DNA of 64,000 bases from Cyanidium caldarium (lineage: Eukaryota; Rhodophyta; Bangiophyceae; Cyanidiales; Cyanidiaceae). Below, piece after piece: positions 44,208 through 60,443 of this stretch (position 1 is its first letter; the number at the start of each line of letters is the position of its first letter). The notes under the pieces were generated by a model. It was not told where the DNA came from and ran no database searches. It saw only the letters and a program-made list of their open reading frames with translations. The DNA lies in NCBI GenBank assembly GCA_026184775.1, contig JANCYW010000004.1, positions 124,001-188,000 on the forward strand. The letters run 5' to 3'. Made by a program: the position numbers and the translations under genes.

Positions 44208-47200
44208 TCAGGAGGGCGGCGCGGCGATTTTAAAGTCGCGAGCGGCGGCGCGGCGTATCGGTCGCATCAGCTCCACATCGTTCCACCGGCGACTGATGGC
44301 GATCAGCGCGCGTTCACACACCTCGATCTGGTACACCAGGTTGGGGAAGAGGGTGCTCTCGCGCACCCGTTTGCGGTGGGATTCGTCGGCCACAGGTGTG
44401 TGCGCGGACTGCATGAGGTCGTAGGCGCTTTGGGAGAGGCGTGCGGCGGCCAGCTGCACAACGCGCTGCCAGGGCGATCGCAGTAGCGGCAGGCGATAGC
44501 GCAACACCGCTTGCGCCAACAGGGTGAGTGTTTTGAAGGCGTGCAGTTGGGCACGCGCTACGGCCTCTATGCAGTGCCACGGGGCGACGGTGGCCACTGC
44601 GGGCACCGCCGTGTCCTCGGCGTGTTCTGGCAGCGACAGGCGTTTGGCGGTGTTGCCGCTGCCGTTGCCGCACAGCGCCTCGGCGGCGATGGCCAAACCG
44701 CGCGCCAGCCGCATCCACGCCTCCAGAAGCGTCACGGTCGGTGCGTGCAGCGCTCCCTCCAGATAAACCTGCACGCCGCGCGTAACACCCCATTCCAGAC
44801 GTGCCAGGGCGGCGTCCGCCTCGTGAGCGACGGCGCGCAGGAGGCTGAACAGGCGATCCGCGGCGGCCGCCGACGTGCTGGGTGCCAAGACGCTCACGGT
44901 CTCTCGCACCAGTTGCGGCAGGGCGTCACTGGCATACGCGGGAGACGCGTGCACCCAATCGCACGCCAGCCGTACCAACGGCGACAACATCGCCGCGGTC
45001 CTCCGTTTGTTCACAGAACCGCCTTCGATTTCTGCCACCGATGGCGGCGCCAAGACGCGTTGCGCCCACGTCCGCAACCGCTCGTCTGTCGGTCGCGCCA
45101 GCCACGAAAGCATCTCCAGCGACGCCACCGTGGCAGCAGGCACAGCGTGCTCGTCGGCCAGCAATCGGCAGCTGAACGTCTCAAGACGCTGCACGGCCGC
45201 TTGACGAGCCGACTCGACATCGACCGCCGCGTCCATCTGGCCCAACACTCGGTATATCTTCGCGGCGGGCTCTGCATCCGCAGCCAGCTCGGCGGGTAGC
45301 TGCGCTGCCGCGACCGTCAATGCCATCGCCACGACCTGCGGCAGCTGCCGGTGGAGTGCCTCCTCCGCCGTCCGCAAGCATTCCTCCACGATCACCTCAC
45401 GTTCTGGTGCGCGCACCTCCATGGACGGCTTTGCGGCCAGCGCCTCCAGTGCGAGCGACGCCAGCGACGACCAATTGCCGCCAACCTGATTGCCTCGGTG
45501 GAGCCACTGCGACAATTGCAGAGCACGATGCACCGGCACGTGCTGCCACAAGTCGGCCGCAGCAGACGGCGCGGTCGCAGAAGCGGATGCCTTCTTCCCG
45601 GAGACACTGCCTGAAGCGGGCGCAGCGCTGGAACTCGACCGGCGGCGCTTGCCCTCGGCTCCCTTGCCGGCACTCGCTTCGATGGTCGGCGTCGTCATGC
45701 CCAGACGCAGTCGCCGGAGACGACCGACATGAGTACCCAGTCGCCGGAGACCGCTCTGTCGCAGGGCACCCAGCGCTTCGGCCACTCGGCGCGCCTCCGA
45801 TTCCGCCAGGCGACCGCCTCCGGTGTGATCGCCCTCAGCAACCACCGAGGGCAGCACCGCCAAAGCGGCCTCGGCGGCCTCCACCACCGCCACGCCCATG
45901 CACCCGTCCTCGGCGGACAGCGGCTCGCGCTCGTCCTCACCGCCCAAATCCACATCCACCCAGTGCAGCCGTGCCAGCCGCTGCACGGTGTCCAGCAGCA
46001 CCTGGTCGCAGCGACAATGCGCCGCCGCCGACAGCGCCATACCCAAACTGTCGCCGAGCCAATGCGTGCCCAAGCACAGCGCCGGACAGTCGTCGTCGGA
46101 TACTGTCGGCGCGTGAAAGGTCGTGCGAATGTGCGTCTCCAGCATCTCGGTCCAGGCGCTCGCAGCCACGCACGTCACGTCTGCGGCCGCCATGGCCGTA
46201 TACCAATCCAGCCGCGATGCCAGCGACGCGGTCGTTAGGGCGCGCGATGCCACCGCCCTCAACTCGGCGTCGGACAGCAGACCGCGGCGTGCGGATGCAT
46301 CGGCGCCCGCCACCCGCATGCTGCCCAAGCGCACCAACACCCAGATGGCCGCTCGGCGCGTCGGTGCCTCGCCGCTGTGCAGGCCTTTGCGACAGGTGAG
46401 CAGCGCCTCACCAACCCATTCCGGCCGATACGGCAGCAGCGGCAGCACGGTCGCCAGAGGGCGCGGCTCGTCGAGGCATTGTCGTATCCACGAGACGCGG
46501 TCCGCCTCCAGGAAAGCCGCCGGGCACTGTGTGATGAGACATTCTAGCAGGCGCGACCACGCTGACGATTGCAATCGCGCAGCGGTCGCTGCATACATCG
46601 CTTGCAGCACGCACGGCACCAAGCGGGCGCAATGTGACACACTGGCATCGGCGCCCAGCACTTCCGCGGCCGTCAACGCTTGCACATCCAACAACGCCGC
46701 CATGAGCGAAAATGCCACGCTGGCTATCGGTCCTGCCTCCCGGGCAGCTTGTCGCAGGTGGCGCCAATAGGTTTGGCGCGCCACCCGTTGGCGCAGCGTC
46801 GGTGGCGCCCACTGTGCCATCTCGCGATCCTGTCGCCAGTGGCGTGCGCTGGTCATACACATCCGCACACAGGTCTCGAAACGCGCGGGCAGCGACGCCA
46901 ACGCCAGCAGCAGCTGCACGCCGCGCTCCGAATGCCATGCCCACCGCTCAAGCGTCGCGTCGCACAGAAGACGCTGCGCCTCGTCGGCGTACGCTCGCTC
47001 TTGGCGAAACACGATCTCCAACGGCGGCAGCAACAGCTGGGCGGAGGGCGCTCGCAGCATCGCCACCAGCAGACGGCGCCGCAACGGACTGGCGCTGGCG
47101 CAGAACAGCATGGCTGCGTACAGCGATGTTGATGCCGCCGCGGGCCAGTCTTCCTGCCCCAAAGTGGCGAAGAGGGCCTCGGCCACTGCCGCATGCAGGG

Positions 47201-50897: not shown

Positions 50898-52547
<1,650 letters not shown>

Positions 52548-52876: not shown

Positions 52877-53599
52877 GATCAAATGAAGGATGGGTGAGGG
52901 GCGCGTCTCTAACACAAGCTCGGCGTGACGAGGACCTTGGCGGGGTCGCCTCGACGCTGAGGAGGAAGTCGTGAAGGAGACCGAGAACACGCGTGGCGCT
53001 CTACCGAGAACAGCGGGAGCGGGAGCACTTGGTTATTCAGAAAGCTGTTATGTGGATCAGGGTCTTCTAAATCGAAGGCGGTGTCGATGCGTCGTGGACT
53101 GCCGCACTTGCTGCACCCACCGAGGAGAAGAGACGTCCCACCTCCGTCACCTTGTCCTACACTCGTCTCCCACGAGGCGCGTGCCTAACGGGCACCCTCC
53201 CTTTTCTGGTGCAACCACTTTTCAAGTCCTCTTCCTCGCTGAGGAGGCGCTAGCCGACGCACGCTATATTTAGCGCCCGCCGCCTCCGACGTCTTTCTCA
53301 CAGGCACCTCCCTGCAGACACTATTTTCTCTCGCTCGAGTCGGATGGTGCGTGTCCGTCCTTTGCGCGTCGGCGGCCGCCTCTAAAAAATAGCGTTCGCG
53401 TGGATTCTGATTCATTCGCTCGGCGTCGGGACACGCGTCCGTGCCTCGTTACCACTCGTTTCAGCGGCGGGAAATTCGCAAATTCGAGTTGCCCGCGCGC
53501 GGGTTTTGCCCGCGATTGGGAGGGGAGCGTTGGCGTTGTCGTATTCTTCCAAACACCACAGTTCGCGATCATCGATCAGCTACTTGCCAGTCCATCATC
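52877..53599. promoter_or_regulatory. Long upstream region of the first cysteine-rich gene
   Basis: The 723 bp between divergent genes. Two AT-rich elements stand out in GC-rich DNA: CTATATTTAG at about 53264-53273 and TAAAAAATA at 53383-53391. Both lie on the plus-strand side leading into the secreted-protein gene. No ORF is supported. Confidence 0.45.
53265..53272 (+). promoter_or_regulatory. Candidate TATA box of the first cysteine-rich secreted-protein gene
   Basis: TATATTTA, flanked by CGC and GCG, 328 bp before the ATG at 53600. A second AT-rich stretch lies 217 bp before the ATG. A TATA element is unusual in this window and could mark a strongly or conditionally expressed gene (inference). 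Confidence 0.4.
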
Positions 53600-54604
53600 A
53601 TGAACGCTCGCGTTTCGATTGTGATCCTCGCCATCTTGGCGGTGCTAGCGTGCGTCTGGGTTGCGCCGGCGGCGGCGATCCCGACGGAGGAGCGCTGGGC
53701 TCAGCAGGCGGTGCAGGCGACTTCCTCGCCGGCGGTGACGTGCACGCCGAAGCAGACCATCCAGAACTGCCAGACGCAGAAGGAGTGCGTCCAGTACCAA
53801 ACGATACAGGAGTGCGTGAGCAAGTATCAGGTCTGCACGACGCCGCAGGTGCAAGCGGTGCAGGTGGTGCAGGCGCAACAGGTGGAGACGAAGAAGGTCG
53901 AAGTGCAGGCTAAGAAGCGCTGGTATCAGCAGGAGCAGCAGCAGCAGCAGCAGCAAACGCAACAAGTGTTGGCGACGGCGGTGGCGACGCCGTCGTGCAC
54001 CGAAAAGTGTAAGTATGCCAGCGTGCAGCAGTGCGTCGCCTACCAGCACTACAAGGTGTGCGAGGTGTGCGTGGAGGAGTATGCGGCGCAGAAGGTTTGC
54101 CAGGCGGTGCAGGCAACTCAGCAGCAGAACCAGCAGCAGAACCAGCAGTGGAACCAGTGGAGCCGGCGCTGGTATCAACAGCAGCAGGCAGTGCAGGCAG
54201 TGCAGGCGACGTCGGCGGTTCAGTGCATCTACAAGTGCGCGTCGCAGGGTCAGACGTGTCACGAGCAAAAGTTCCCGATCCAGACGGTGCAGCCGACGCA
54301 GTCGGTGTTGCCGACCACCACCACCACGGCCATAGTGACGGTGACGGTGCAGCCGACGCAGTCGGTGTTGCCGACCACCACCACCACGGCCACTAGCACC
54401 GCGACCTCCACGACGACGATGACGGCGATCCCCGTACCGACTTCGACGGCAACGGCGTCTGCGACCACGACGACATCGCCGACGCCCTCGGTGACCATTT
54501 CGACATCGCCGACGCCCTCGGTGACCATTTCGACGTCGCCGACGCCCTCGGTGACGATTTCGACGTCGCCGACGCCCTCGGCTTCGAGCGCCGTGATCAT
54601 CTGA
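53600..54604 (+). CDS. Secreted Gln-rich cysteine-array protein A, new family
   Basis: A 334-residue protein. MNARVSIVILAILAVLACVWV...AAA is a signal peptide. The mature part has three cysteine modules: C-x8-C-x5-C-x8-C-x6-C; C-x3-C-x7-C-x8-C-x2-C-x9-C; and C-x3-C-x6-C. The spacing is identical to that in the gene at 55367. Between them are Gln-rich linkers (QQEQQQQQQQTQQ) and recurring RWYQQ segments preceded by KKR or SRR. The tail is Thr/Ser/Pro-rich: two copies of VQPTQSVLPTTTTTA, then four of a ten-residue SPTPSVTIST unit, likely heavily O-glycosylated. The end (ASSAVII) is too short for a GPI signal. I know no family with this pattern. An extracellular-matrix or cell-wall role is inference. 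Confidence 0.8.
   Translation: MNARVSIVILAILAVLACVWVAPAAAIPTEERWAQQAVQATSSPAVTCTPKQTIQNCQTQKECVQYQTIQECVSKYQVCTTPQVQAVQVVQAQQVETKKVEVQAKKRWYQQEQQQQQQQTQQVLATAVATPSCTEKCKYASVQQCVAYQHYKVCEVCVEEYAAQKVCQAVQATQQQNQQQNQQWNQWSRRWYQQQQAVQAVQATSAVQCIYKCASQGQTCHEQKFPIQTVQPTQSVLPTTTTTAIVTVTVQPTQSVLPTTTTTATSTATSTTTMTAIPVPTSTATASATTTTSPTPSVTISTSPTPSVTISTSPTPSVTISTSPTPSASSAVII
54283..54392. repeat. Two 60-bp direct repeats coding VQPTQSVLPTTTTTA
   Basis: Period 60 (54283 and 54343); 50 bases are identical, a coding expansion in the mucin-like tail of protein A. Confidence 0.85.
54471..54590. repeat. Four 30-bp tandem repeats coding SPTPSVTIST
   Basis: Four 30-bp units with few substitutions encode the Ser/Thr/Pro decapeptide; the last unit degrades after PTPS. 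This is a coding repeat, not CRISPR. Confidence 0.88.
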
Positions 54605-55366
54605 AGCATCCTGATCGCTGGCTGGATAGCATAGTTTGCTGGTTCGCCCTCGGCGATCTTCCGACCGACTATGGCAAGTTCGGCCTCATGAGACGTAGTC
54701 ACGGCAAGCTTGCTGGTGATGAGGCCCGCATGTACGATCACTATACTCGATGGCCTTCGGGCGCCTGCGTGATGATAGGCGTTCCGATATGAAACGAAGC
54801 AATTTCGTGCACCGCAGCGCGTGCAGCGAGAGCCGCTTTCGCCAACACCACTGCCGCAGCGAGAAGTAGGGAACGGTTGCGAAGTGGCAGGCTAGATGGG
54901 CCATGAAGGCCCCGGTGGGTATTCCACGGAACGTAAACAAGTAGAGGAGTGGATGAGAAGAGGGTATTTCGTGCGTTGTGCTTTGGAGGGTTCCGCGTGA
55001 ATGGACTGCCGGGCTCGCAGCGGGGCGTCTCCAGGCGTGCCCGGGTGAACGATGTGGAGGTTTGCGCAAGTGCCAAACGCCACATTCAGACATTCATTTG
55101 GGGAGAGCGCTCGAGGTAGGAACTCCCCCTCCATTTCGTAAGCGCTCCGCACTCACGAATGCTATTTTGGGAAGTGGCGCAGGTTTGCCTGCCTCTATGT
55201 GCACTCCCCGGGGCGCAACGTGTACCGCACGAACGCACGCGTCGATCGGGCGTCCGCTCGGGAGAAGTGCGCGGCCGTGATGTAACGAAGGGTTTGGCGA
55301 CGACGTGAAGAGCCATTGGGGTTGTCAACGCTCCCCACAGTCTCTCTTTCTACGGAGCGAACTGTT
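54605..55366. other. Gap between the two cysteine-array genes
   Basis: The 762 bp hold the 3' end of gene A and the promoter of gene B. No clear TATA box, ORF or RNA gene. No remnant of a third paralogue is visible. Confidence 0.5.
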
Positions 55367-56035
55367 ATGACCAAGTCGCGCCTCTCATTGCTGTGGGCGG
55401 TGGTGGGCTGGCTGGTGCTGGTGAGTGTGTTGGTGGGTGCGGTGTTGCCGGCCAAAGCGGCTACGGAGGAGAACGTTGCCGAGATGCCATCGGTGGAGCG
55501 GTATCCGCAGTGCACGCCGCACATACACTACTATGATTGTCAGACGTATAGGCACTGCGTTCGCTATGACTATGTCAACTATTGCTATGAGACCTACAAC
55601 GACTGCACTTGCCCGAGCGGGCATGTTCTCGGCCACGAGGGCAGCTCATCGTACTGCTACTCCTCGTCGGAAACCTCAGCGCATACAGCACCGACTTGCC
55701 ACCGCAAGTGCCGCTACCGCCGCGAGCACCGCTGTGTGAGGTACGAGAGGTACAAGCATTGCCGCATATGTGAGTATCTCTACTGCCCGTACCAGTACTG
55801 CGGTTCTGGCAGCGACAACTCGCACATGCGTTTGGCGGAGGCGGTCGACGGCAACGCTGTGGAGCGCATGCCGTCGTGCTCGTACCGTTGTCGACCGTGT
55901 GGGCACCGGTGCTACGACAAGAACATCGACTTTTCCTACTACACGCCGTCCTACTCGTCGATGCCGACCTCCAGGCCGACTTCGTCTTCGAGTTCCATGT
56001 CGGCAGTCAGCTTCAACATCGTCGCCAACCACTAG
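55367..56035 (+). CDS. Secreted Tyr/His-rich cysteine-array protein B, paralogue of A
   Basis: A 222-residue protein with a signal peptide (MTKSRLSLLWAVVGWLVLVSVLVGAVLPAKA). Its cysteine modules have exactly the spacing of protein A (8-5-8-6; 3-7-8-2-9; 3-6), plus four extra cysteines. The CVxY...C core appears twice in each protein (CVRYDYVNYC and CVRYERYKHC here). The composition has shifted from Gln-rich to Tyr/Arg/His-rich, and the long mucin-like tail is reduced to a short Ser/Thr/Pro stretch. The two genes are neighbours on the same strand, so they probably arose by tandem duplication. The function is unknown. The ATG at 55367 is the first in frame. Confidence 0.8.
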   Translation: MTKSRLSLLWAVVGWLVLVSVLVGAVLPAKAATEENVAEMPSVERYPQCTPHIHYYDCQTYRHCVRYDYVNYCYETYNDCTCPSGHVLGHEGSSSYCYSSSETSAHTAPTCHRKCRYRREHRCVRYERYKHCRICEYLYCPYQYCGSGSDNSHMRLAEAVDGNAVERMPSCSYRCRPCGHRCYDKNIDFSYYTPSYSSMPTSRPTSSSSSMSAVSFNIVANH

Positions 56036-56264: not shown

Positions 56265-58502
56265 CTACTGCACCGTGACCGACTTGGCCAGGTTCCGCGG
56301 CTGATCCACGTTCAACCCGCGCGCCACCGCCATATGGTACGCAATCAGTTGCATGGGAATGATGCCCAGCACCACTTGCAGACAATCCACCGCCGGCGGC
56401 ACCGCCAGCACCGTGCTCACCCCGGCGCGCCGAAACTCGTCTTCGTCGCCCTCACAGCATACCACGATCATGCGGTGACTGCCGCCGCGCGCCAGCACCT
56501 GCTGCAACGCATTCTTCACCTTGTCGTAACAGTCGTCGCGCATGGCGAACAATACGATCGGCATCTCCTCGTCTACCAACGCCAGCGGGCCGTGCTTCAG
56601 CTCGCCGGCGTGTATGCCCTCGGTGTGCACGTAGCTGACCTCTTTGATCTTCAGCGCCGCCTCCAAACAGGTGGCGTAGTGAAAGCCGCGACCGAACAGC
56701 AGAATCGAGGTGGCGCGGCACAGCTGGGTACAAGCGATATCCCGCAGCACATCGTCCATCTGCAGCACCCGTCGCACCTGCTCGGGCAGGCGCGCCAGAC
56801 CGTCCATGATCTCCGCCCGCCGCGCCGCCTTGCTCAGACGGTCGGCGCTGAGCAGCAGACCGATCATGACCATCGCCACAATCTGCGAAGTGTACACCTT
56901 GGTGGACGCCACCCCGATCTCGCAGCCGGCATTCAAATGCACACCGCAGTCGGTGAGACGGGCGATGGCCGACCCCACCACATTCACCACACCTACCGTT
57001 AGCGCGTTGCGCTGCTTGGCGTATCGCAGCGCATCGAGGGTGTCGGCGGTCTCACCCGACTGGCTCAGGAAGAAACACACATCGGAGCGGAAGATAGGAC
57101 AGCGGCGATCCAAAAAGTCGCTGGCCAACTCCACCGCCACCGGCAGCTCGGTCAGCTGCTCCATCAGATGTCGACAGGCCAAGGCGGCGTTGTAGCTGGT
57201 GCCGCAACCGACAAAAATCAGTCGCGAGCTGCGCAGAATATCAGCCAGACGCTCGCGCAAGCCGCCCAAATGCACGGTGCGCGTGCTCGCCTGAAAACGC
57301 CCGCGCATGGTGCTGACCAGGCTGTCGGGCTGCTCGAAGATCTCTTTCAGCATGAAGTGGTCAAAGTTGCCCCTCATGATCTGTTCCAGCTCAAAGTCGA
57401 GGGTGATCAACGCGCGCGTCTGCGTGACCGCTCGCTGCACGCCCTCGTCCATGAACGAGAACACGTCCACCTCGCCGTCGCTATCCACATGTACCACGTC
57501 ACTGTCCTCCAGTACCACCACCTGTCGCGTGTGTTCCACGATGGCGCTGGCATCGGACGCGAAGAAAAGCTCGCACCGCTGCTCACTCTCTCGAGCCGGC
57601 CGGCCGTTGGTCCGCGGGCTGGCCGGGTGAAAACTGAAACCGCGCGGCAGCTCCGTCTCCAAGCCCACCTGCGCCACCTGATAGATGCTGGGGTCGCGAC
57701 GCGGCGTCCGTCGCAGCAGCCCGCCCTTCATACCGCTGGAGGGTATCTGGGTGGGCAAACTGTCCAGGCTGCGCGAACTGCCGCCGCCATCCCCTGACAG
57801 GTATTCGTGGTGAGGACTACCCTGCGGACTGGACATATCTGCCGCCTGAGCGGCAGTGGCCATGCCCATCACCAGTGGTGAGCCGCGCTTGCAGGCCACC
57901 ACTTCGCCCGGAAAGTGCTGGGAACGAATGATGAGGGCGTACGCGCCCTCCAGCTCGTGCATCAACAGCATCACTAAGCGCGGGAACGACAGCGCCTCAC
58001 TGGGTGTCTCTGACCCGCACAGCTCGTTGTACAGATGTGCCAGCAGCTTGGCCACCACTTCGGTGTCGGTGTCCGATTCGAACGGGAATCCTTTCTTGAG
58101 CAACACCTCTCGCAACGCCGCGTAGTTGGTGATGATCCCGTTGTGCACCACCAGAAACTCGTGGCCCGGCCCCGAGCTGTGCGGGTGGCTGTTGACGACA
58201 CTCGGCGCGCCATGCGTGGCCCAGCGGGTGTGCGCCAGCCCGACATGCGTGCTGACCGAGAAATCCGGCTCATTCGTCAGCGTCTGCCACACCTGGGCCT
58301 CCAGGATGGCCACCGTGCCCGGCGACTTGATGACCAGCGCCGAGCGGTTCCCACTGGGATCGGTGAGCGCGTCATCGATCGCAATGCCCGCCGAGTCGTA
58401 CCCGCGGTACTCTAGCCGCCGCAGTCCGTTCAGTAGGGTGCGAACGATGTCCTGGCGGGTTCGTTCCACGCCGTGGGTCACGTACGCGAAGATGCCGCAC
58501 AT
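56265..58502 (-). CDS. Glutamine:fructose-6-phosphate aminotransferase (GFAT)
   Basis: A 745-residue enzyme making glucosamine-6-phosphate, the entry step to UDP-GlcNAc. It starts MCGIFAYVTHG; Cys2 is the glutaminase nucleophile, so the start is certain. RLEYRGYDSAGIAI and HTRWATHGAPSVVNSHPHSS complete the Ntn domain. A roughly 85-residue Ser/Gly-rich insertion in this domain is of the kind seen in eukaryotic GFAT. Two SIS domains follow (FVGCGTSYNAALAC, FLSQSGETADTLDALR, ASTKVYTSQ, HAGELKHGPLALVDE), ending PRNLAKSVTVQ as usual. Confidence 0.96.
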   Translation of the reverse strand: MCGIFAYVTHGVERTRQDIVRTLLNGLRRLEYRGYDSAGIAIDDALTDPSGNRSALVIKSPGTVAILEAQVWQTLTNEPDFSVSTHVGLAHTRWATHGAPSVVNSHPHSSGPGHEFLVVHNGIITNYAALREVLLKKGFPFESDTDTEVVAKLLAHLYNELCGSETPSEALSFPRLVMLLMHELEGAYALIIRSQHFPGEVVACKRGSPLVMGMATAAQAADMSSPQGSPHHEYLSGDGGGSSRSLDSLPTQIPSSGMKGGLLRRTPRRDPSIYQVAQVGLETELPRGFSFHPASPRTNGRPARESEQRCELFFASDASAIVEHTRQVVVLEDSDVVHVDSDGEVDVFSFMDEGVQRAVTQTRALITLDFELEQIMRGNFDHFMLKEIFEQPDSLVSTMRGRFQASTRTVHLGGLRERLADILRSSRLIFVGCGTSYNAALACRHLMEQLTELPVAVELASDFLDRRCPIFRSDVCFFLSQSGETADTLDALRYAKQRNALTVGVVNVVGSAIARLTDCGVHLNAGCEIGVASTKVYTSQIVAMVMIGLLLSADRLSKAARRAEIMDGLARLPEQVRRVLQMDDVLRDIACTQLCRATSILLFGRGFHYATCLEAALKIKEVSYVHTEGIHAGELKHGPLALVDEEMPIVLFAMRDDCYDKVKNALQQVLARGGSHRMIVVCCEGDEDEFRRAGVSTVLAVPPAVDCLQVVLGIIPMQLIAYHMAVARGLNVDQPRNLAKSVTVQ

Positions 58503-59360
58503 GACAGCGGAGGGGAGCGTGGAGATGGAGGGAAATCAGAGACGGACGGATGGGGCTGGGCCGGGAAAAGACTTGACATGGAACACCTCCATTCCTCGCG
58601 GTACCCTGTGCGTCCTGGAGCCGTAAACGTCGGCTTGACGAATGCGGACCGTGGTGGCTGTCGAAAGGAGAACGGCGGACCGATCGCGTCTGCGCCGAGA
58701 GCGCGCGGCACACACACACAGATACACGCACACACACACAGATACACACACCCACGAGGAGCGCCACCGAGGCCGCAAGGCGCGCGCTACGCTGGGAAGG
58801 CGCACAGAGTGAGGGACGCGTGAGGAGCGGTCTGCTCAAGGGCAGATGGGGGCGTCGAGGATGGCGGCAGTGTATTCGGGAGACGTTGGTATGCAAGTCG
58901 TCGATTGGGTTGCACGCAAGGCGTCCGTCAAGACGCCGGCTTTCGGAAGGTCTCCGTCTCTTGTGCGCGTCTGCCTCATGAATATCGCGCTCTCTTTTCC
59001 ACGTCACGGCATAGGCTCCTCCGCTTGCCGTTTGTCGAGAGACGCAGCGCACACGGCACCGGGCGCAGCGCGCCCGGTGCGACGACGCGCTATCGACGTT
59101 CAGCGTCCGCGCGGGCACGCTCGCAAACGTATCGCTGCGCGACCGTTCCCCGCCTCCGCATCACCCTGCAACCCCTTCCTCTCGTTCAGCAACCGCCCGA
59201 GTTGCCAGCATTACGTCATCGGTGGCGCGGCCGTGGTGCGCAACGCGCCCATGCGTCTCGACACCAGCACGACCGGCCGTCCCAGCAGCGCCTTCCGCGC
59301 CTCGTGTGGACGTGCACCCACAACAACAAAACGGACTACAGCAACTTCACCTCCCCATCC
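58503..59360. promoter_or_regulatory. Divergent intergenic region with CA microsatellite
   Basis: The 858 bp between GFAT (minus) and the SLC25 gene (plus). It contains a CA/GATACA run at 58709-58753. The SLC25 frame is open through much of the region, but its first ATG is at 59361, so I do not treat the upstream part as coding. Confidence 0.5.
58709..58753. repeat. (CA)n microsatellite with GATACA interruptions
   Basis: CACACACACACAGATACACGCACACACACACAGATACACACA-type repeat in the shared upstream region. Confidence 0.88.
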
Positions 59361-60443
59361 ATGGGCGACGGAGTGGTGCCGGTGGCCGACGCCACCTCGG
59401 ACGAGTACGCGGTACGGACGCCGCCGCCCGCGCTGTTGCAATTCACGGCCGGCGCCGTCGCCGGGGTGATTAACACGCTGGTGCTGAATCCGTTGGACGT
59501 GGTGCGCACGCGAATGCAAGTGGCCGGCGCGGGCGCGTTTGCCGCCGCCGGTCAGCCGGCGCTGGAACGACGGAGTGTGCGGGACGTGGTGTTGGCCATG
59601 TGGCACACCGAGGGACCGCGCAGTTTCTATCGTGGCGTGTCGGCGTCGTTGGTGGCGTTCGTGCCCAACTGGGCTCTCTACTTTGCGCTGTATGAACACT
59701 TCAAAGGGCGTCTGCTGGTGTGGCAACGACGGCGACAAGAAGCCGCGGGCAAGCCGCCGTCGACGAGCACGCTGCAACGCGTGTTCCATCACTCGATGCC
59801 GTACACGCTGGCGGCCGTGGGCGCGGGTGCCATCACCGCGGTGGCCAGCTCGCCGCTGTGGGTGGCCAAAACGCGTATGCAAGCTGAAGTGGTGCTGCAC
59901 GGCAACGCGCCGCGGTACCGCCATCCGCTGAACTGCATCGCCATGGTCGCCCGCGAGGAGGGCGTCGGGGCGCTGTACCGCGGGCTGGCGCCAGCGCTGT
60001 TCGGGCTGGTGCACGCGGGCATCCAATTCCCGCTGTACGAGGCGATCAAGCAGCGCATGCAGCAACGACGATATCGACGCGTAGCCACGATGGCGAACAT
60101 GTCGCCCGCGCGAATGATCCCCGGCAGCACCGAGCCGCACGCATTCGATATCATGGTGGCGTCGGCGCTGAGCAAGTTGGTGGCCAGCACCGTGGCCTAC
60201 CCGCACGAAGTACTGCGCAGCAAAATGCAAGTGCTGCAGGTGAGCCAATCGGTCGCCCAGAGCGTACCGCTGCGCGCCGAGCTGGGACGCATGTTGCGAA
60301 TCGCCAGCGAGACTGTTCGCAACGAAGGCCTCATGGGACTGTATCGCGGCCTAGGGCCCACGCTGATGCGCACCCTGCCCGCATCGGTACTCACCTTCGT
60401 CTCCTACGAAGCGTGCCGCTCGCTCCTCCACGCCAACGAATAG
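59361..60443 (+). CDS. SLC25 mitochondrial-type carrier (NAD/folate/pyrimidine-nucleotide subgroup)
   Basis: A 360-residue inner-membrane carrier with three repeats and their signatures: NPLDVVRTRMQ near residue 43, SPLWVAKTRMQ, and YPHEVLRSKMQ. The PLW and YPHEVLR variants are typical of the branch carrying NAD+, folate/FAD and pyrimidine nucleotides. Q-box-like YRGV, YRGL and YRGLGP follow each repeat. The exact substrate cannot be told. The ATG at 59361 (MGDGVVPVADAT) gives a normal-length carrier; the frame runs far upstream without ATG. Confidence 0.88.
   Translation: MGDGVVPVADATSDEYAVRTPPPALLQFTAGAVAGVINTLVLNPLDVVRTRMQVAGAGAFAAAGQPALERRSVRDVVLAMWHTEGPRSFYRGVSASLVAFVPNWALYFALYEHFKGRLLVWQRRRQEAAGKPPSTSTLQRVFHHSMPYTLAAVGAGAITAVASSPLWVAKTRMQAEVVLHGNAPRYRHPLNCIAMVAREEGVGALYRGLAPALFGLVHAGIQFPLYEAIKQRMQQRRYRRVATMANMSPARMIPGSTEPHAFDIMVASALSKLVASTVAYPHEVLRSKMQVLQVSQSVAQSVPLRAELGRMLRIASETVRNEGLMGLYRGLGPTLMRTLPASVLTFVSYEACRSLLHANE

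Follow-up and report, generated by a model that had tools for sequence, protein, structure and literature searches.

A tandem pair of secreted-looking cysteine-rich proteins in Cyanidium caldarium and an apparently undescribed family of candidate wall proteins

The window, that is the whole stretch of 64,000 nucleotides of DNA analysed here, comes from Cyanidium caldarium, an acidophilic red alga of hot springs, and spans positions 124001-188000 of contig C4. It contains two neighboring genes, A and B, whose intact frames are separated by 762 bp and encode cysteine-rich proteins with signal-like N-termini. The features of the pair are as follows, in window coordinates.

53600..54604, + strand: gene A, 334 aa, stop included in the coordinates; secreted-looking, with Gln-rich linkers and a Thr/Ser/Pro tail (basis: open frame)
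53600..53677, + strand: putative signal peptide of A, residues 1-26 (AAA/IP; basis: hydropathy maximum of 3.25 at residue 5, and eye)
53741..53836, + strand: module I of A, Cys48-Cys79, spacing 8-5-8-6
53996..54100, + strand: module II of A, Cys133-Cys167, spacing 3-7-8-2-9
54224..54259, + strand: module III of A, Cys209-Cys220, spacing 3-6
54296..54601, + strand: mucin-like tail of A, residues 233-334, containing 60-bp and 30-bp tandem repeats
55367..56035, + strand: gene B, 222 aa, stop included in the coordinates; secreted-looking, Tyr/Arg/His-rich, 18 Cys (basis: open frame)
55367..55459, + strand: putative signal peptide of B, residues 1-31 (AKA/AT; basis: hydropathy maximum of 2.67 at residue 12, and eye)
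55511..55606, + strand: module I of B, Cys49-Cys80, spacing 8-5-8-6
55697..55801, + strand: module II of B, Cys111-Cys145, spacing 3-7-8-2-9, with an additional Cys140 within the 9
55877..55912, + strand: module III of B, Cys171-Cys182, spacing 3-6, with an additional Cys178 within the 6

The window has a GC content of 61-69% in 4-kb steps. The region is flanked by a phytoene/zeta-carotene desaturase-like frame (50937-52547, +) and a mitochondrial-carrier-like frame (58905-60443, +), and gene B is adjoined by a frame resembling glutamine-fructose-6-phosphate aminotransferase of the hexosamine pathway (56265-58502, -); all three were named by eye.

An earlier note on this DNA had placed the open frames at 53600-54604 and 55367-56035 and given both products a signal peptide. 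The coordinates are correct, and both proteins begin with a hydrophobic, signal-like stretch, as judged from hydropathy and from inspection of positions -3 and -1 by eye rather than with a dedicated predictor. The composition is also as that note described: A is rich in glutamine (59 residues, with only 2 His) and carries a Thr/Ser/Pro tail, and the 222 residues of B include 23 Tyr, 18 Arg, 12 His, and 5 Lys. Protein A contains 15 cysteines, one in the signal peptide and 14 in the mature part, arranged as 8-5-8-6, a linker of 53, 3-7-8-2-9, a linker of 41, and 3-6. Protein B contains 18, namely the 14 A-type positions together with Cys82, 97, 140, and 178, and its "9" and "6" spacings step over additional cysteines (4-1-4 and 2-1-3). 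An identical 14-cysteine array, as previously claimed, therefore exists in the sense that 14 positions are common to A and B, but the total number differs by the four extra cysteines of B. The linkers between the modules of the two proteins are unlike. A recurring CVxY core, likewise proposed before, is found in modules I and II of A and of B, and partially in the paralogues described below. These two modules have a common C-x5/7-C-x8-C core, which in A and B includes CVxY; the resemblance points to an old internal duplication.

Queries with A, B, and each newly found head against the 8,787,356-base assembly (20 contigs) yielded two further members on other contigs, paralogue C3 (C3:38656) and paralogue C11 (C11:408305). 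Only 4 to 11 candidates were scored in each search, so four members is a lower bound and more distant paralogues are possible. All three spacings (8-5-8-6, 3-7-8-2-9, and 3-6) occur in order and exactly in all four proteins, and each of the four has a signal-like N-terminus according to hydropathy and -3/-1 inspection. Aligned over 141 ungapped mature columns, the proteins have 14 all-cysteine columns and a single other invariant column among the remaining 127. Pairwise identity outside the cysteines is 9% for B and C3, 11% for B and C11, 17% for A and B, 20% for A and C11, 23% for A and C3, and 42% for C3 and C11. The strict spacing with free composition that had been claimed from A and B is thus stronger than stated, as it extends to four paralogues with 1/127 non-cysteine columns invariant.

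Chance was assessed in 200,000 shuffles for each of the proteins, in which the cysteines were redistributed within the scaffold region. The module I spacing arose in 78 shuffles for C11, 18 for C3, 30 for A, and 241 for B, and the module II spacing in 3, 0, 2, and 22, respectively; a chance origin of the spacing is excluded for these two modules. Module III is weak when taken alone, with its 3-6 spacing recovered in 16,572 (C11), 7,677 (C3), 9,625 (A), and 32,117 (B) of the 200,000 shuffles. When 137,697 bases were scanned in six frames, covering the window and ten fetched loci (one of them overlapping the window, with the overlap counted in that total), modules I and II were confined to the four genes. 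A four-member family with fixed cysteine spacing is well supported by these sequence comparisons.

Several weaker genome matches were rejected as members. The match at C1:41720 is a 212-aa frame with 2 cysteines lying antisense to a long frame, and that at C18:17879 is a 184-aa frame with 5 cysteines and without the array. Paralogue C11 ends approximately 2.7 kb from telomere-like repeats of the AATGGGGGG type near the end of its contig, where a 29-bp repeat passes into AATGGGGGG-type repeats (fetched locus L015, 7682-8086); we take AATGGGGGG to be the telomere unit, as in C. merolae. The match at C6:6662 was also rejected, since it resembles A through the tail only. By eye, this gene near a contig end combines kelch repeats with trefoil-like repeats rich in Cys and a linker of Thr/Pro/Ala, a kind of protein described in PMC9812998.

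None of the four proteins matched a Pfam or NCBIfam model above its curated cut-off, where Pfam covered C3 up to the ninth SPPPPP unit and NCBIfam covered the heads with the tails cut. The best family match was Extensin_1 on the Lys repeat of C11 (E 1.1e-12), which at 48.5 bits stays below the cut-off of 105. Among PDB sequences the best matches had E values of 0.1 (B) and 0.32 (profile), both to unrelated proteins, and 33 and 65 pattern matches in viral and GTDB contigs gave no confirmed relative. Searches of 5.8 billion proteins matched the window's own B and one other protein (P0005, EukProt ctg_3746.g644), the sequence of which is identical to the C3 protein over long blocks, with interruptions of the sort that an incorrect splice model would leave; a further search matched none of 301 candidates. 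EukProt includes other red algae. However, these searches require shared 5-letter words and scored few candidates (7,997 and 7,996 in the two with matches), so absence from other red algae is weak evidence. Among the libraries searched, the family thus appears to be known from Cyanidium caldarium alone, but this restriction carries little weight with respect to C. merolae, Cyanidiococcus, and Galdieria, none of whose genomes was searched directly. No description of the 14-cysteine family was recognised among the literature matches listed, with subscription papers and supplements outside the scope, and the parts of the wall literature covered name LOX, FAS1, and trefoil-like proteins and no cysteine-scaffold structural family. 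The proposal of an undescribed family is therefore upheld in that nothing exceeded the Pfam or NCBIfam cut-offs, no PDB, viral, or prokaryotic relative was found, and no paper was recognised; the sources searched thus appear to contain no description of the family.

The tails of all four members differ. That of A (residues 233-334) consists of 37% Thr, 19% Ser, and 13% Pro, and that of C11 (residues 186-479) contains 29% Thr and 25% Pro and ends in 14 Ser/Thr-Lys pentapeptides of the SKPPF type. Protein B has hardly any tail, only a short Ser-rich one, attached to a Tyr-rich head with five YxY motifs. Paralogue C3 carries approximately 168 extensin-like SPPPPP-type units, the starts of which lie between C3:39589 and 44134, within a 27-bp tandem array coding for SPPPPPTSR (C3 ~39578 to ~44150). 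After the array, Pro/Thr/Gly-rich repeats continue in the then-current frame to a stop ending at 45213. The reading frame switches 10 times within the array in this assembly, so the C3 array may be misassembled or broken; our guess is an assembly error in a GC-rich repeat, and a broken gene is possible. The SPPP motif occurs in none of A, B, and C11, and none of these three C-termini ends in a GPI-like hydrophobic stretch. An SPPPPP-like DNA stretch on contig C14 (68% identity) was rejected, as it lies within no ATG-started frame of 250 aa.

Structure prediction with AF2, based on a two-row, window-only alignment, gave a mean pLDDT of 52 for the best model of B (39-41 for the other four) and of 47 for A (28-34 for the others). 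In its best model, B has residues 26-99 (model numbering) predicted confidently and long strands at 22-50 and 79-105. Foldseek returned 32 matches to this weak model at E values up to 10, the best at 0.86 and none significant. An assignment of cysteine pairs from the AF2 strands was dropped in view of the low scores and the two-row alignment.

A possible regulatory element lies upstream of the family genes, with two copies in the window.

55220..55231, + strand: putative upstream element GTGTACCGCACG, 147 bp from the start codon of B
53450..53458, + strand: weaker copy TACCACTCG, 150 bp before the ATG of A, with 2 mismatches to the 9-mer

The sequence TACCGCACG was first noticed in the 200-bp upstream regions of three family genes out of four. 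The 12-mer GTNTACCGCACG has 12 sites in the 8.79 Mb genome (9 forward and 3 reverse; 2 and 3 for the reversed-pattern control), and three of these are coding-strand sites that precede the ATGs of C3 (C3:38542-38553), C11 (C11:408191-408202), and B (window 55220-55231) by 114, 114, and 147 bp, respectively. From the window's own count, 0.033 TACCNCNCG sites are expected per 300 bp of one strand. The other nine GTNTACCGCACG sites lie inside ORFs of more than 250 aa, but a contrast between coding sites elsewhere and noncoding sites in the family is weak, because shorter ATG-started ORFs also cover the family sites (184 and 149 aa, antisense, at C3; 109 aa, antisense, at B; 238 aa, sense, at C11), and only the closeness to the ATGs stands. 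The check for downstream genes at the nine other sites was made in the wrong orientation for two of them (L051 and L055). Since the motif was chosen after the fact and the upstream regions of C3 and C11 are alike, the independent fact is the copy before B. No full copy of the 9-mer was found in the fetched LOX and FAS1 loci. The element could be a shared regulatory site or the remnant of an ancestral promoter.

The earlier note had pointed to the protein-rich wall of Cyanidium. A protein content of 50-55% is indeed reported from a 1968 analysis, although the strain of that analysis is uncertain according to PMC13353863. Cellulose synthase genes are reported as lost in the lineage, whereas small amounts of cellulose are cited in PMC3797821; with the doubt about the strain, the reported wall chemistry is itself provisional. 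In a strain that was then called C. caldarium and is assigned to Cyanidiococcus in PMC13353863, a secreted LOX-like protein was considered a probable cross-linker of wall proteins. Expression of LOX and FAS1 is described as occurring mainly in walled diploids. PMC13353863 lists 2 LOX and 4 FAS1 genes in tandem for C. caldarium 063 E5, a genome given elsewhere as 8.79 Mbp with 65.7% GC and 20 chromosomes (PMC9812998). The genome searched here has two neighboring LOX matches on C16 and four neighboring FAS1 matches on C1. It also contains an ERO1 gene, which equips the alga to form disulfides. There are two peroxidase-family matches as well; however, class III peroxidase genes are reported as absent from Cyanidium in PMC13353863, so coupling of tyrosines would be conjecture. 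The sole match found in the genome to PF13640 (2OG-Fe(II) oxygenase, P4H-type) belongs to an Ofd1-type protein (C4:58363-58671, -), and extensin-style proline hydroxylation in the ER is therefore without support here.

We hypothesize, with a probability of roughly 0.6, that A, B, C3, and C11 are paralogues belonging to a small family whose members are secreted and have a structural role in the cell wall or extracellular matrix, each combining a disulfide head with an interchangeable tail. All four appear to be secreted, judging from inspection of their sequences, and each would consist of a signal peptide, a three-module Cys-rich head, and linkers and tails that are free to diverge. The head would be oxidised in the ER, for which an ERO1 gene is present, into a compact, disulfide-locked unit, and such disulfides would be suited to life at pH 1-3 because thiol exchange is slow there. 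Linkers and tails would then extend throughout the wall and supply its bonding chemistry, with possible O-glycosylation on the Thr/Ser/Pro stretches of A and C11, a long SPPPPP rod in C3, and YxY tyrosines in B that may be open to oxidative coupling. The lysine pentapeptides of C11 may be a substrate of the alga's lysyl oxidase; LOX needs substrates, and this repeat and the lysine-bearing A are candidates. The near absence of a tail in B, together with its 5 lysines, counts against a role in the wall.

It is less likely, by a wide measure, that the proteins are soluble or loosely held mucins of an outer slime or biofilm matrix, the disulfide head serving as an acid- and protease-resistant cap. 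Such a role would fit the lack of a GPI-like C-terminus in A, B, and C11 and the match of the A tail to the Thr/Pro-rich linker of the kelch-trefoil-like gene near the C6 end (named by eye), and protection against low pH has been suggested in PMC13353863 for trefoil-like proteins that occur in these algae. The Lys repeat and the YxY motifs, however, suggest cross-linking. Chlamydomonas agglutinins recognise the mating partner with a head on a Pro-rich shaft, and it is conceivable, if improbable, that these proteins are haploid or gamete surface adhesins in which a variable head does the same; C3 has a head and an HRGP-like shaft, divergence outside the cysteines is very strong, and haploid mating is reported for Cyanidiophyceae (PMC13353863). 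Nevertheless, the family has four members only, one of which (B) has 222 aa and no shaft. A function as extracellular Cys/His proteins binding hot-spring metals, to which the 18 Cys and 12 His of B might point, is very improbable, because fixed spacing, even cysteine numbers (14 and 18), and secretion favor disulfides, A has only 2 His, and at pH 1-3 thiols and histidines are protonated and bind metals poorly. Finally, although GC-rich DNA yields long chance ORFs on both strands and the codon positions of C3 are little contrasted (GC3 0.67, GC12 0.61), it is scarcely credible that the four genes are overcalled frames without kinship, given their matching spacing and signal-like starts at four loci, GC3 values in A, B, and C11 of 0.79-0.87 (compared with 0.49-0.55), and the presence of C3 as a EukProt gene model.

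Considered as wall or matrix proteins, the four members may be compared with several known systems. Extensins and other HRGPs of plants and green algae resemble them in the long SPPPPP repeat of C3, in the YxY motifs of B, which are linked to extensin cross-links, and in the secreted appearance of the proteins. However, repeated SPPP(P) is present in C3 only (~168 units), Extensin_1 stays below its cut-off on C11 and does not match A, B, or the scanned part of C3, PF13640 found no ER-type prolyl hydroxylase in this genome, and to our knowledge classical extensins have no Cys head. The pherophorins of Volvocales combine globular Cys-containing parts with a Pro-rich rod, and Hydra minicollagens work in a similar way in that Cys-rich ends lock a Pro-rich wall protein by disulfides, but with another Cys pattern and collagen triplets; neither model is among the Pfam matches of the family (C3 up to its ninth SPPPPP unit). 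Trefoil proteins have a Cys spacing unlike that of the family. The kelch/trefoil (TFF-like) secreted proteins of Cyanidiales, which PMC9812998 and PMC13353863 describe as often subtelomeric, occur in the same genome and likewise join Cys-rich modules to a Thr/Pro-rich stretch, yet neither the kelch nor the trefoil model is among the family's Pfam matches. By analogy, the 14-cysteine family would work like other matrix proteins with a Cys head and a Pro/Thr tail, while failing membership in the named families tested.

More tentatively, a lineage-specific disulfide domain might provide an unchanging socket for a variety of grafted tails that cross-link in different ways (glycosylated Thr/Pro, a polyproline rod, Lys for lysyl oxidase, and Tyr for oxidative coupling). 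The result would be a perhaps co-regulated kit with which to build an acid-proof wall of protein, in a lineage for which cellulose synthase genes are reported as missing. With four located genes and a testable pattern, the composition of an acid-resistant wall becomes directly testable, and genetic manipulation of haploids is reported for the genus in PMC13353863. The family also illustrates clearly how cysteine positions can be conserved when nearly all other positions drift.
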